A stretch of DNA of 45,647 bases from positions 1-45,647 of IMG/VR virus record IMGVR_UViG_3300018083_000048. One strand, written 5' to 3'. The position numbers and the translations under genes are program-made. How positions within the stretch are numbered: the first letter of the stretch is position 1; each line of letters starts with the position of its first letter. Below, one piece after another: positions 2,274 through 31,079 of this stretch. The notes under the pieces were generated by a model. It did no database searches, was not told the origin of the DNA, and was given only the letters and a program-made list of their open reading frames with translations. This DNA is from a virus.

Positions 2274-3928
2274 TCCCGCCGCTCGTGAGCGTGATCGTTC
2301 CCTGCCACAATCACGGGGCCGTCGTCGGCGACGCGATCGCGAGCGTGCTCGAGCAACCGATCCCCGTGGAAGTGATCGTGATTGACGACGGTTCGACGGA
2401 CACGACGCCGGCCACGCTCGCGGCGATCGAGGATCCCCGCGTCCGAACGATGCGCCAGGAACACAGCGGGCCGTCGAGCGCGCGGAACCTGGGGATCGAG
2501 CTCGCGCGCGGGGCGTTCGTGATGTTCCTCGACGCCGACGACACGATCGAACCGACGAAGCTCGAGACGCAGATCGCCGCGTTCGACGAGACGGTCGGCT
2601 GGGTCCTGTGCGACGTCGAGATACAGGACGCCGCGAAGCAACGGACGATCACGGCCTCCGAACAATACCGCTACGATCGGCGCGAGTTCGGCGGATGGAT
2701 CGCGCCGATGCTCCGCCGCGGCAACGTGATCCCGATCATGTCGCCGCTCGTGCGACGCGAGACGATCGGATCGATCCGGTTCGACGACGCGCGCGTTCCG
2801 GAGGACTGGCACTTCTGGATCGCGATCGCGGAGGCGGCCCGTTGTCGCTACGTTCCGGAGGTGCTCGCGACGTACCGCCATGGGATCACCGGCCGGAGTC
2901 GGCTCCCGAAGTCGGCGCGCCAGGCGCATAGCGGGATCCGCTCGCCGCTCCGCTTGAACCTTGGATGCGGGAACCCGGCCGATCGATCCTGGCATCCGCT
3001 CCCGGGCCTCGTGAACCTCGACAAGTCGCTCGGCTGGAAATTCGAGCACGGGCTCGGCGAATTCGCCGCGGGCACCGTCGCAGGGATCACGATCTCGCAC
3101 GCGCTCATGTATCTCGCGGCCGACGCCTGGCCGGCGTTCGTCGAGGAGCTCGCGCGCGTGCTCGAGCCTGGCGGCGTCGTGCGGATCACGGAGGACGAAA
3201 CCCGCGACGCGCGATCGAGGTGTGTCGGCGGATGGAAGGGATCGCACCCGGCGATCACGCTCACGTCGCCGGCGTTCGTCCGCGCGAACCTTGAGGCCGG
3301 CGGGTTCACCGTCGTCGACGTCGCGCCCGACGAAACCCGGTACCGCGATGCGTCGCTCTGTCAGCGGTTCCACGGCGGGCCGCCCGACGTGTTTTTCGTC
3401 GAGGGCCTCAAGCGGAACGCGCTTCTATTCGCGCCGCACTCCGACGACGAGGCGCTGTTCGCCGCGTTCACCGTGCAACGCGCGCGGCCGCGGATCGTGA
3501 TCTGCTATCCGTCCGTCCGCGACTACGGCGACACGTACCGCCGGACGGAGGAGTCGCGCGCCGCGGCCGCCATCCTGGGCGCCGGGCCCGTCGAGCAATG
3601 GCAGGGCGGCAACCTCGCGGCCCGTATGCGCGCGCTCGTCGCCGATCACGGGATGCCGGCGGAGGTGTGGGCGCCGTCGCCGAACGCATCGCACGCCGAT
3701 CACGTCGCCGTCGCGGTCGCCGCGCGCGAGGTGTTCGGCGCCGGCGTTCGCCGGTACCAGACGTATCGGGGCGCCGAACGGGTTCGCGAGGGGCGCCAGG
3801 TCAGCCCGGGCACGGCCGACGCGATCGGGCGCAAGCTCCGCGCGCTCACGTGCTACCGCTCGCAACTCGAGCACCCGCGAGCCTCGCCGTTTTTCCTCGA
3901 CGATCAACGGGAGTACGAGGAATGCTAA
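2270..3928 (+). CDS. Three-domain fusion: GT2 glycosyltransferase - SAM methyltransferase - PIG-L deacetylase
   Basis: A 552-aa protein. Residues 1-225 form a family-2 glycosyltransferase (VSVIVPCHNHG, VIVIDDGSTD, FLDADDTIEP carrying the DxD). Residues ~226-380 are a class I methyltransferase of the LNLGCGNP type, with a following LARVLEPGGVVRI strand. Residues ~384-552 match PIG-L/LmbE zinc-dependent N-acetylglucosamine deacetylases: LLFAPHSDDEALF holds the metal-binding His-x-Asp-Asp, and SHADHVAVA the distal His pair. One polypeptide could transfer, methylate and deacetylate a sugar. The start is the ATG at 2270, which overlaps the upstream stop; longer in-frame starts run into the preceding gene. 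The domain order is as seen; the substrate is unknown. Confidence 0.85.
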   Translation: MIPPLVSVIVPCHNHGAVVGDAIASVLEQPIPVEVIVIDDGSTDTTPATLAAIEDPRVRTMRQEHSGPSSARNLGIELARGAFVMFLDADDTIEPTKLETQIAAFDETVGWVLCDVEIQDAAKQRTITASEQYRYDRREFGGWIAPMLRRGNVIPIMSPLVRRETIGSIRFDDARVPEDWHFWIAIAEAARCRYVPEVLATYRHGITGRSRLPKSARQAHSGIRSPLRLNLGCGNPADRSWHPLPGLVNLDKSLGWKFEHGLGEFAAGTVAGITISHALMYLAADAWPAFVEELARVLEPGGVVRITEDETRDARSRCVGGWKGSHPAITLTSPAFVRANLEAGGFTVVDVAPDETRYRDASLCQRFHGGPPDVFFVEGLKRNALLFAPHSDDEALFAAFTVQRARPRIVICYPSVRDYGDTYRRTEESRAAAAILGAGPVEQWQGGNLAARMRALVADHGMPAEVWAPSPNASHADHVAVAVAAREVFGAGVRRYQTYRGAERVREGRQVSPGTADAIGRKLRALTCYRSQLEHPRASPFFLDDQREYEEC

Positions 3929-28232: not shown

Positions 28233-28375
28233 TCCTGATCGCCGGCGGGCTCGCGCTCGTCGGCGTCGTCGCGCTCGCGGTTCGTACGATCGTACGGCTC
28301 CGCCGGCCAGGCGTCGAGGCGCGTCGGCTCTCGAGCCTGGGCACGGTCGAGGCGCACCGGGAGCGACGGCCATGA
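28220..28375 (+). CDS. Small single-pass membrane protein
   Basis: A 51-aa protein. Residues 3-21 (PMILIAGGLALVGVVALAV) form a membrane helix, followed by a basic tail. The basic residues after the helix suggest a cytoplasmic C-terminus. Its stop overlaps the start of the Dam gene. Function unknown. Confidence 0.55.
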   Translation: MAPMILIAGGLALVGVVALAVRTIVRLRRPGVEARRLSSLGTVEAHRERRP

Positions 28376-29004
28376 GTCGCACGAACACGGCCGCCCGCCA
28401 TTCATGCGACTCGCCGGAATGGTTCACGCCGCGCGAGTACGTCGAGGCCGCGCGCCAGGTGCTCGGCGCGATCGATCTCGATCCGGCGTCTCACGTCGAG
28501 GCGAATCGGATCGTCCGCGCGCGCCGGTTCTACACGGCGAAGCAGAACGGACTCCGGCGCCCGTGGGCGGGCCGCGTGTTCGTGAACCCGCCGGGAGGAC
28601 TCACGGCGGAATTCTGGCACCGACTGATCGACGCGTGGGAGGCCCGGGAGATCTCCGCCGCGATCTGGATCGGGTACTCGCTCGAGCAGCTTCAAACGCT
28701 GCAAGGGTACGAGGTGCGATCCCCGCTCGCGTTCCCGTTCTGCGTACCTGATCGCCGGATCCCGTTCGTCGAGTCGACGGCGAAGCGCGATCTCCGGCGC
28801 CAGGCAGTCGAGGTGCACAATCGGAACGTGCGCGAGGCGATCAGGGACGCGGAGAAACGGGGCGACGGCACGAGCGCGATCGGGCCGCTTCGCGAATTCA
28901 AGGCGGCCGCGCAACCGTCGCACGCGAACTACATCACGTACATAGGGCGCGCGTCGGCCAGGTTCGCGCGCGTGTTCGGCGAATTCGGCGAGGTGCGACG
29001 TTGA
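28372..29004 (+). CDS. Phage DNA N6-adenine methyltransferase (Dam family)
   Basis: A 210-aa enzyme of the phage Dam family: SPEWFTPREYVEAARQVLG, the LDPAS motif near residue 36, then FVNPPGG at 70-76, the catalytic NPPx motif. It should add a methyl group to adenine N6; many relatives act on GATC. GATC is remarkably abundant in this genome. It forms a TTGA stop/start overlap with the C5 methyltransferase gene. Confidence 0.85.
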   Translation: MSRTNTAARHSCDSPEWFTPREYVEAARQVLGAIDLDPASHVEANRIVRARRFYTAKQNGLRRPWAGRVFVNPPGGLTAEFWHRLIDAWEAREISAAIWIGYSLEQLQTLQGYEVRSPLAFPFCVPDRRIPFVESTAKRDLRRQAVEVHNRNVREAIRDAEKRGDGTSAIGPLREFKAAAQPSHANYITYIGRASARFARVFGEFGEVRR

Positions 29005-31079
29005 AGTACTTGAGCGTGTGCAGCGGGATCGAGGCCGCCTCCGTCGCGTGGGGCCCGCTCGGATTCGATCCCGTCGCGTTCAGCGAGATCGAACCGTTCC
29101 CGTCGGCCGTGCTCGCTCACCACTATCCGACCGTCCCGAATTGGGGCGACATGATGAAATGGGAGTCGTGGCCTGATGCAATTATCGATGTTCTCGTCGG
29201 AGGAACTCCGTGCCAATCGTTCAGCGTCGCCGGGTTCCGAAAGGGACTGGCTGATCCGCGTGGCAACCTTGCCCTTACGTACCTTGCGATCGCTGATCGA
29301 TATCGCCCCCGTTGGATCGTTTGGGAGAACGTCCCCGGCGTCCTGTCCTCTGTCAGCCATGCCGCGCCCGATCCATGTGCGCCGCCGGCACCTCTGGACG
29401 TGGGACGCGACGGCGCAACAGTGGAGACTGACGACGAGTACGACGGAGAAGAATTACACGCATTCGGCTGTTTCCTGGCCGGATTATCAGAGCTCGGGTA
29501 CGGCGTGGCGTACGGAACTCTTGACGCTCAGTACTTCGGCCTGGCGCAGCGCCGGGAGCGTGTGTTCGTTGTCGGCTATCTTGGAGACTGGCGTCGTAGC
29601 AGCGCGGTACTACTTGAGCGGGGCAGCCTGTCGGGGGATCCTTCGCCGCGCCGCGAAGCGTGGGAAAAAATTGCCGGAACTCTTGGAGGGAGCTCTCAGA
29701 GCGGCGGGTTCAGAACGACGGACCTAGACAACTCCGGCGCGTTCATACCGGAGATCTCGCGCGACGTCGAGACGGCGGGCACACTCGACGCGGGCGACGG
29801 ATCCGCAACGCAGCGCGCCGTCGAGAGTAGTCGACTGATCCCCGTCGAGACGGCGCATTCGCTCGACGCCTACAGCGCCGGCCGCGCGACGGAGGACGGC
29901 ACGGGCCGCGGCTGTCCGTTGATCCCGACGGGCGACGTGATCGCGTTCGACACGACACAGATCACGCACCCGGCGAACCGGAGCAACCCTCAGCCCGGCG
30001 GGACGAGTCCACAACTCGCGGCCGCCGCGCACGCGCCGACGATCGCCTTCTCCGTCAAGGATCACGGCGGCGATGCAACGGAGGAGCTCTCGCCGACGCT
30101 CCGCTCTGGAAACGAGATCAACGCGAACGCGAGCGGCGGCGTGATGCCGGCGATCGCTTTCGAGCCTCGTGTCGCGAGCGGTCGACGGGAGGGGAAGATC
30201 GGCGACACGGCCGGCCCGCTCACGAAAGAATCGGATCGCGGCGACGGGTTCCCGTGTGTCGCGTACGGCGTGCACAGCGATCACTCTGTCGCGATGCGAG
30301 GAAACGGATCGGCCGAAGTCGCGTACGAGACGGATCGCGCGCGCGCCCTCGACACGAACGGCGGGTTCGCGCATTCGCAAGGCGGAACCGTCGTCGCGGC
30401 TCGAGCGGTCGCGTACGGGATAGGCTCGCACGCCGGAGCGGCCGACGCCGAAGTCAGCAACAAAAACCACGCGAGCGGCGGCCCGGCCGGCATGGGCATA
30501 CAGGAGGAGTGCTCGCACTCCATGAGGGCGGGCCGCGTTCCCGCCGTCGCATCGTTTCAGGAGGGCGGCGAGGAGTCGGTCGGGTTCTACGCTCAAGGCG
30601 GAACCCAGGGGATCTCGGCCGACACGACGGCGCCGTCGCTCAAGGTCGGCAACGGCAACGCCGGCCATCAGATCGCCGTCGCGTCGTTTCAGGAGTCGCA
30701 GAGCGGCGCGCGCGTCGGCGAGACGCATCCGACGCTCGACGCGCACAACGGATCGCGACGGCACCAGGGCGTCGTCGGGTTCGCCGACGTCGCCGATCCT
30801 GTCGCCGCCAATCAGGCCCGCACGTACACGCGGGAGGGCGCCGGAAATTTCCGAATGTCCAACGTCGCGCACAGCGCCGTGCAGGTCCGACGGCTCACGC
30901 CGCGCGAGTGTGAACGACTGCAAGGGTTCCCCGACGACTACACGCTGATCCCGTACCGGCGCAAACTCGCCGCCGACGGCCCGCGCTACAAGGCGCTCGG
31001 TAATTCGATGGCGGTTCCGGTCATGCGATGGATCGGGGAGCGGATCGCCATGGTCGACGAGATCGAACCGGAGGAGTAG
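29001..31079 (+). CDS. DNA (cytosine-5) methyltransferase with large insertion
   Basis: A 692-aa C5 methyltransferase. Motif I is SVCSGIEAASVAW, motif IV GGTPCQSFS (catalytic Cys71), motif VI WENVPG (Glu109), motif VIII QRRERVF. Motifs IX-X close the protein (RLTPRECERLQGFPDDYT; YKALGNSMAVPVM). Between VIII and IX lies a ~400-residue insertion rich in short repeats (AGTLDAGDGS, SPTLRSG, SNPQPGG), typical of long phage enzymes, where target recognition is expected. The start is a TTG preceded by GAGGTG. Codons 59-242 also encode an out-of-frame ORF, and there the codon choice departs from the genome norm. Confidence 0.92.
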   Translation: MKYLSVCSGIEAASVAWGPLGFDPVAFSEIEPFPSAVLAHHYPTVPNWGDMMKWESWPDAIIDVLVGGTPCQSFSVAGFRKGLADPRGNLALTYLAIADRYRPRWIVWENVPGVLSSVSHAAPDPCAPPAPLDVGRDGATVETDDEYDGEELHAFGCFLAGLSELGYGVAYGTLDAQYFGLAQRRERVFVVGYLGDWRRSSAVLLERGSLSGDPSPRREAWEKIAGTLGGSSQSGGFRTTDLDNSGAFIPEISRDVETAGTLDAGDGSATQRAVESSRLIPVETAHSLDAYSAGRATEDGTGRGCPLIPTGDVIAFDTTQITHPANRSNPQPGGTSPQLAAAAHAPTIAFSVKDHGGDATEELSPTLRSGNEINANASGGVMPAIAFEPRVASGRREGKIGDTAGPLTKESDRGDGFPCVAYGVHSDHSVAMRGNGSAEVAYETDRARALDTNGGFAHSQGGTVVAARAVAYGIGSHAGAADAEVSNKNHASGGPAGMGIQEECSHSMRAGRVPAVASFQEGGEESVGFYAQGGTQGISADTTAPSLKVGNGNAGHQIAVASFQESQSGARVGETHPTLDAHNGSRRHQGVVGFADVADPVAANQARTYTREGAGNFRMSNVAHSAVQVRRLTPRECERLQGFPDDYTLIPYRRKLAADGPRYKALGNSMAVPVMRWIGERIAMVDEIEPEE
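29176..29727 (+). CDS. Overprinted ORF inside the C5 methyltransferase gene
   Basis: A 183-aa ORF in the +1 frame, wholly nested in the methyltransferase gene, with GGGAG 10 bases before its ATG. It opens MQLSMFSSEELRANRSASPG, has SFGRTSPASC and LLTLSTSAW, and ends in a basic helical stretch (ACRGILRRAAKRGKKLPEL). From memory, similar proteins opening 'MFSSEE..SRSPGS' and carrying 'LETG..P.RYFLS..AC.GILRRA.KRGK.LP' are annotated in many phages at the same nested position. Over these codons the host frame uses CTT, TTA, ACT and GGA codons that are rare elsewhere, as dual coding would require. Function unknown. Confidence 0.75.
   Translation: MQLSMFSSEELRANRSASPGSERDWLIRVATLPLRTLRSLIDIAPVGSFGRTSPASCPLSAMPRPIHVRRRHLWTWDATAQQWRLTTSTTEKNYTHSAVSWPDYQSSGTAWRTELLTLSTSAWRSAGSVCSLSAILETGVVAARYYLSGAACRGILRRAAKRGKKLPELLEGALRAAGSERRT

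Follow-up and report, generated by a model that had tools for sequence, protein, structure and literature searches.

The window (the whole 45,647-nucleotide stretch of viral DNA analysed here, an IMG/VR virus record) encodes a cytosine-specific C5 DNA methyltransferase (MTase), within which a second open reading frame, referred to below as P, runs in the +1 frame. The features of the locus are as follows.

28372–29004, + strand: upstream gene for a Dam-family N6-adenine MTase (PF05869, E 4.9e-7).
29001–31079, + strand: C5 cytosine-specific DNA MTase, the host of the nested frame (692 aa, TTG start; Pfam PF00145, E 1.3e-45; TIGR00675; PHROG 116).
29161–29165, + strand: GGGAG, a Shine-Dalgarno-like site for P in the sequence, spaced 10 bases from its ATG.
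29176–29727, + strand: P, the nested frame in the +1 frame of the MTase (183 aa, complete from ATG to TAG).
29371–29451, + strand: P residues 66–92, a beta-hairpin insertion (AlphaFold2 pLDDT about 95) that few relatives have (for example, L001 and L081).
29524–29700, + strand: conserved C-terminal core of P, residues 117–175, three helices, overlapping MTase motif VIII and the segment that follows it.
29625–30851, + strand: variable region of the MTase, residues 209–617, with no predicted fold (AlphaFold2 pLDDT about 30–40) and no target-recognition domain found in cis.
30885–31046, + strand: MTase motifs IX–X (VRRLTPRECERLQGFPDDYT...RYKALGNSMAVPVMRWIGERI), in the large chain of the window.

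The stop of the Dam-family gene and the start of the C5 gene overlap in the sequence TTGA. Motifs I–X of the C5 MTase all lie in one chain, and P, which starts inside motif IV, spans motifs IV–VIII. The core of P has the consensus SLSxILE..P.KYYLS.KAC.GILRRA.KRGK.LPE.L..AL. In the MTase frame, the DNA of the beta-hairpin (29371–29451) is likewise an insertion, following motif VI; the hairpin is shared by the P of the window, L001 and L081 and missing from most relatives.

An earlier note, made from the sequence alone, had described P as a complete 183-codon frame with GGGAG ending 10 bases 5′ of its ATG, and had read a shift in host-frame codon use as a sign of dual coding. The frame and the site are present as described, and the codon shift was borne out by counting: CTT, TTA and ACT number 7, 2 and 4 among the 183 MTase codons of the overlap and are missing (0, 0 and 0) from the other 508, and GGA takes 10 of the 183 overlapped codons against 10 of the 508 elsewhere. 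The GC content at third positions of MTase codons is 0.62 within the overlap versus 0.86 before and 0.84 after it. The note's GATC counts were also correct (6 in the P frame and 9 at positions 2281–2580); at the window's own rate, set by 923 occurrences in all, about 11 would be expected per 552 bases. This total for 45.6 kb is itself several-fold above the expectation from base composition (about 135).

We asked how often such a frame would arise by chance with the MTase protein held fixed and its synonymous codons permuted. For the window, the probability of a +1 frame open this long was about 0.02, falling to about 0.007 when a start and a ribosome-binding site were also required; across 64 non-redundant homologues, only 0.5 genes with an open +1 frame, start and ribosome-binding site were expected under permutation. 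The +1 frames of the real sequences scored 69–131 bits against the P of the window, compared with a null median of 24 bits (95th percentile 40), and 69 bits was reached by 1 of 1,260 null sequences. Most homologues start P at the same position, as a rule with AAGGAG at a 7-base spacing ahead of it, and this site is kept by synonymous choice, with lysine encoded by AAG in 24/24 cases (11.6 expected) and glutamate by GAG in 36/48 (23.7 expected). The ribosome-binding site of P in the window is only moderate.

Viral homologues were gathered in two sets: L001–L080 were fetched with P, and L081–L160 with the MTase N-terminus alone, so that the second set is unbiased for P. In that second set P was present, in the same +1 register and with its start conserved, in all 80 loci; stops in the +1 frame of close homologues, which the earlier note had named as grounds for rejecting the gene, therefore did not materialize. 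Nor did its other such ground, free synonymous variation in the MTase frame. At fourfold-degenerate MTase sites compared pairwise among the 64 non-redundant homologues, identical residues used the same codon in a fraction of 0.35 before P, rising to 0.53 over its N-terminal part and 0.83 over its C-terminal part (the last third); GGA at MTase residue 195 and GCT at residue 176 were the identical codon in 64/64 homologues.

Selection acts on the amino acids of P. Over its last third (residues 117–175), 190 distant pairs had a mean identity of 56% in P versus 44% in the MTase frame, and identity in P was the higher of the two in 93% of the pairs. Within this core, 43% of DNA differences fell at third positions of P codons versus 31% at third positions of MTase codons, an excess that argues for selection on amino acids and against a signal in RNA or DNA; an RNA structure or other nucleic-acid signal was rejected on this P-frame pattern of differences, and a chance frame on the same selection pattern together with the permutation tests. 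P is the dominant frame in its last third. Over its first 57 residues the MTase frame dominates, with 55% of differences at MTase third positions. The overlap is long, on one strand and unusually well supported, and in its last third the hidden frame is more conserved than the annotated one.

P is widespread among phages. It was found in 110 phage records, and in each of 12 records fetched for inspection it lay in the +1 frame of a match to a C5 MTase (12/12; these span P1, Vibrio, Pseudomonas, Caulobacter, Akkermansia, Enterobacter, Pectobacterium, mycobacteriophages and gut phages). In phage P1 it lies unannotated within dmt, again in the +1 frame (locus L174, about 2740–3210). A pattern scan for the core gave at least 597 confirmed matches, the core was present in 337 of the 339 loci collected, and the motifs that the earlier note had likened to proteins nested in other phage C5 MTases (MQLSMFSSEE... 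and ...ACRGILRRAAKRGKKLPEL) proved to be conserved across hundreds of relatives. The homologue survey and the selection tests thus support that note's central claim, of an overprinted protein-coding gene nested in C5 MTases across phages. P is also conserved in AT-rich Lachnospiraceae and gut phages; in the Lachnospiraceae family of L170, about 25 of 397 sampled genomes gave a strong match. Ordinary C5 MTases sampled by TIGR00675 (L439–L468) had no P in any frame, with the exception of L445, which is of the M.EcoHK31I-like type discussed below. An origin as a de novo overprinted orphan gene was rejected, as P extends to phages of many hosts and to bacterial genomes, and single-chain MTases carry it in frame.

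Several other observations came from these surveys. In Mycobacterium phage Schatzie (L176, 1324–2847), annotation marks the P-bearing methylase as interrupted and leaves its intron boundaries unresolved, with an HNH endonuclease gene inside. One bacterial genome carries an isolated 93-aa frame resembling the core, on the − strand and with no adjoining MTase (L427), which could be either a remnant or a stand-alone protein. A second, more distant family of +1-nested frames (...GKCLTARISESPSQGSGCILSDILMEDVPEKYYLSQKQ...) is hosted by a different subfamily of C5 MTases, for the most part in genomes from the family of L170 (L369–L375, L379, L430, L431 and L438).

Sequence searches of Pfam, NCBIfam and PDB with P or its profile gave no match, and Foldseek with the P model gave no significant match in PDB. 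In a viral library, Foldseek placed P near only an annotated 81-aa P fragment of Mycobacterium phage Thibault and one MTase-named protein. PHROG 16143, named ‘DNA methyltransferase’, matched 115 of 132 P proteins, which suggests that some phages probably already have P as a predicted gene, under the name of its host gene.

The closest known counterpart came from bacteria. M.EcoHK31I is a YGGCCR C5 MTase, and M.EaeI is a similar two-polypeptide C5 MTase; the published lengths of the M.EcoHK31I polypeptides are 309 and 176 aa, with the small one nested out of frame. In M.EcoHK31I, motifs I–VIII and X lie in the larger of two polypeptides and only motif IX in the smaller (PMC3404938), and methylation in vitro needs two proteins, according to the title of reference 18 in that paper. 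Weak genome hits led us to a locus (L377) where the nested frame consists of the P core and, after it, MTase motif IX; motifs I–VIII and X are in the large chain. The large chain of this type of pair was matched in 106 of 5,426 complete Escherichia coli genomes. One such E. coli locus (L385) pairs a 309-aa large chain with a +1-nested frame of 176 aa; by its motif split and these lengths, which match those of M.EcoHK31I, this locus appears to be M.EcoHK31I-like. At another (L386), annotation gives a NotI-family restriction endonuclease as the convergent neighbour. In RefSeq, both of these chromosomal loci have the 309-aa chain alone, with no annotation of the nested 176-aa chain.

Profile comparison with hhalign aligned the P family with the small chains of these systems over 105 collinear columns (probability 99, E 6.4e-18). 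P is therefore homologous to a chain whose identity as the M.EcoHK31I small polypeptide is itself judged from the motif split and subunit lengths. The window MTase further resembles M.EcoHK31I in that its large chain is a C5 MTase holding motifs I–VIII and X, and in that the small polypeptide lies in the +1 frame of the large-chain gene, in the same place and register as at the E. coli locus. It differs in three respects: motif IX, found only in the small chain of M.EcoHK31I-like systems, is in the large chain of the window, beyond the end of P; a variable region of 400 residues is present in the window MTase; and no restriction enzyme was noted adjoining it. Because P is without motif IX, the pair fails one defining feature of M.EcoHK31I, and we regard it as a variant of the type and not a strict member, one that probably works like M.EcoHK31I.

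In several lineages the core of P is fused to parts of the MTase. In three rumen phage contigs (L264, L267 and L335) and two bacterial genome loci (L359 and L408), the P frame continues in frame via the variable region to motifs IX–X, and motifs I–VIII form a separate chain; in the product of L264, Pfam detects only the C-terminal part of PF00145. Four other loci (L388, L403, L404 and L405) encode a complete MTase whose chain also includes the P core, downstream of motif X. These single-chain enzymes share the core and the MTase subfamily with the window, but there the core is in cis and the nested +1 frame is broken by stops. No further fusions of the L378 type appeared in a viral scan made for them. 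A core found either in trans, nested, or in cis at the end of the enzyme would look like a working enzyme part. Frame-swapped forms were also seen: in L303, L304, L287 and L368 the MTase N-terminal half leads in frame into the P core, and in L309 the N-terminal part of P leads into the MTase C-terminal half. They apparently arose by indels in a G-rich tract that lies upstream of motif VIII, and decay, phase variation, programmed frameshifting or assembly error could each account for them.

Two other known arrangements bear comparison. In M.AquI, two chains make one C5 MTase, split in the variable region (PMC3404938). The five relatives with a separate motif I–VIII chain are likewise split, after motif VIII, but their second chain begins inside motif IV and bears the P domain. 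Mycobacteriophage methylases of the ShiLan type hold an out-of-frame HNH endonuclease (PMC11855218), and so also hide an out-of-frame gene within a phage methylase. The ShiLan gene, however, has an HNH domain and is a mobile insertion of patchy distribution, whereas P overlaps conserved MTase motifs and is present in every close homologue; a homing endonuclease of this type was rejected because P has neither an HNH domain nor any Pfam or PDB match and occurs in 80/80 homologues selected by the MTase.

The target-recognition domain of a C5 MTase normally lies between motifs VIII and IX, here residues 209–617. AlphaFold2 folded the window MTase over residues 1–208 (motifs I–VIII) and 620–690 (motifs IX–X) but gave no confident fold for 209–617 and no folded recognition domain in the chain, a low confidence that may stem from a shallow, gappy alignment of the variable region. 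For P, it predicted the three-helix C-terminal core (pLDDT 84–97) and the beta-hairpin of residues 66–92, the rest being uncertain. Some ordinary C5 MTases have, following motif VIII, a segment (LxxILE..V..KYYLS) to which the core bore a weak likeness (hhalign probability 88.5, E 2.7e-6, from examples partly picked by score); the idea that such enzymes carry the core in frame, being weakly supported, was set aside.

P is a selected protein, found in the same place throughout, homologous to the small polypeptide of M.EcoHK31I-like systems and fused to MTase parts in some relatives. This homology and the fusions of its core point to an MTase subunit, and the reading we favour, with good though not full confidence, is that P is the independently translated second subunit of its host C5 MTase and a homologue of the nested small polypeptide of M.EcoHK31I-like enzymes. 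We infer that this phage translates P, and that the product binds the MTase, acts at the target-recognition domain and is required for methylation. In the mechanism we propose, ribosomes would start internally on the MTase mRNA to make P, whose C-terminal helical core would join the large chain (motifs I–VIII and IX–X). The core folds well in the AlphaFold model, the MTase variable region has no confident fold there, and the core weakly resembles the segment after motif VIII of some ordinary enzymes; on these grounds, we propose that it probably completes the small DNA-recognising domain, which the large chain alone appears not to fold. Against a subunit stands the fact that P is without motif IX and the large chain has motifs I–X, so that the large chain might be active alone.

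P might instead be a real protein that acts apart from MTase catalysis, either as a phage protein against restriction or by regulating the MTase, the functions the earlier note had suggested. Overprinted viral genes often encode accessory proteins (reviewed in PMC8227390), and P, being small with a basic C-terminus, might bind nucleic acid or another protein. We consider this unlikely: apart from the single isolated frame at L427, P was not found away from a C5 MTase; several lineages have its core joined to an MTase half or to the C-terminus of the MTase; and its homologue forms half of an M.EcoHK31I-like MTase in a restriction-modification locus, where a restriction antagonist is not expected. 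The suggested functions thus found no support, and the homology to M.EcoHK31I-like systems and the core fusions point to an MTase subunit in their place. The note's view that the function of P is undescribed held in part. The nested frame in phage C5 MTases was not found described in the open-access subset of the literature, but P does have a homologue in the nested small polypeptide of an M.EcoHK31I-like system.

A role as an aid and not an obligatory subunit also has little probability in our estimation. P would then restore or modulate an MTase already active alone, for example as a factor for specificity or stability, as the presence of motifs I–X in one chain would allow, and M.EcoHK31I-like systems, with motif IX in the small chain, would be the extreme case; the strict co-occurrence (80/80) and the strong constraint on the core suggest more than this. 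It is very improbable that the +1 frame is untranslated and reflects high GC, conservation of the MTase or a signal borne there by the RNA or DNA. Long spurious frames do occur in GC-rich genomes, and many are listed in the window, but this reading is contradicted by the freezing of synonymous sites, the codon permutation nulls, the third-position excess in P and the conservation of P in AT-rich Lachnospiraceae and gut phages.

Returning to P as a second subunit, on balance we lean towards a broader proposal: that a subfamily of phage and prophage C5 MTases, including P1 Dmt, would depend on an unannotated +1 subunit lying across motifs IV–VIII that supplies part of the DNA-recognition domain, and that this domain would move between being nested in trans, fused to the IX–X half and fused in cis after motif X. 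If this is true, M.EcoHK31I would turn from a single biochemical curiosity into an example of a general design of phage cytosine methyltransferases. A gene would be missing from the annotation of well-studied phages such as P1 and of about a hundred complete E. coli genomes (the 106 matched), and codon-optimised or recoded clones of P-bearing MTases would silently lose a subunit.
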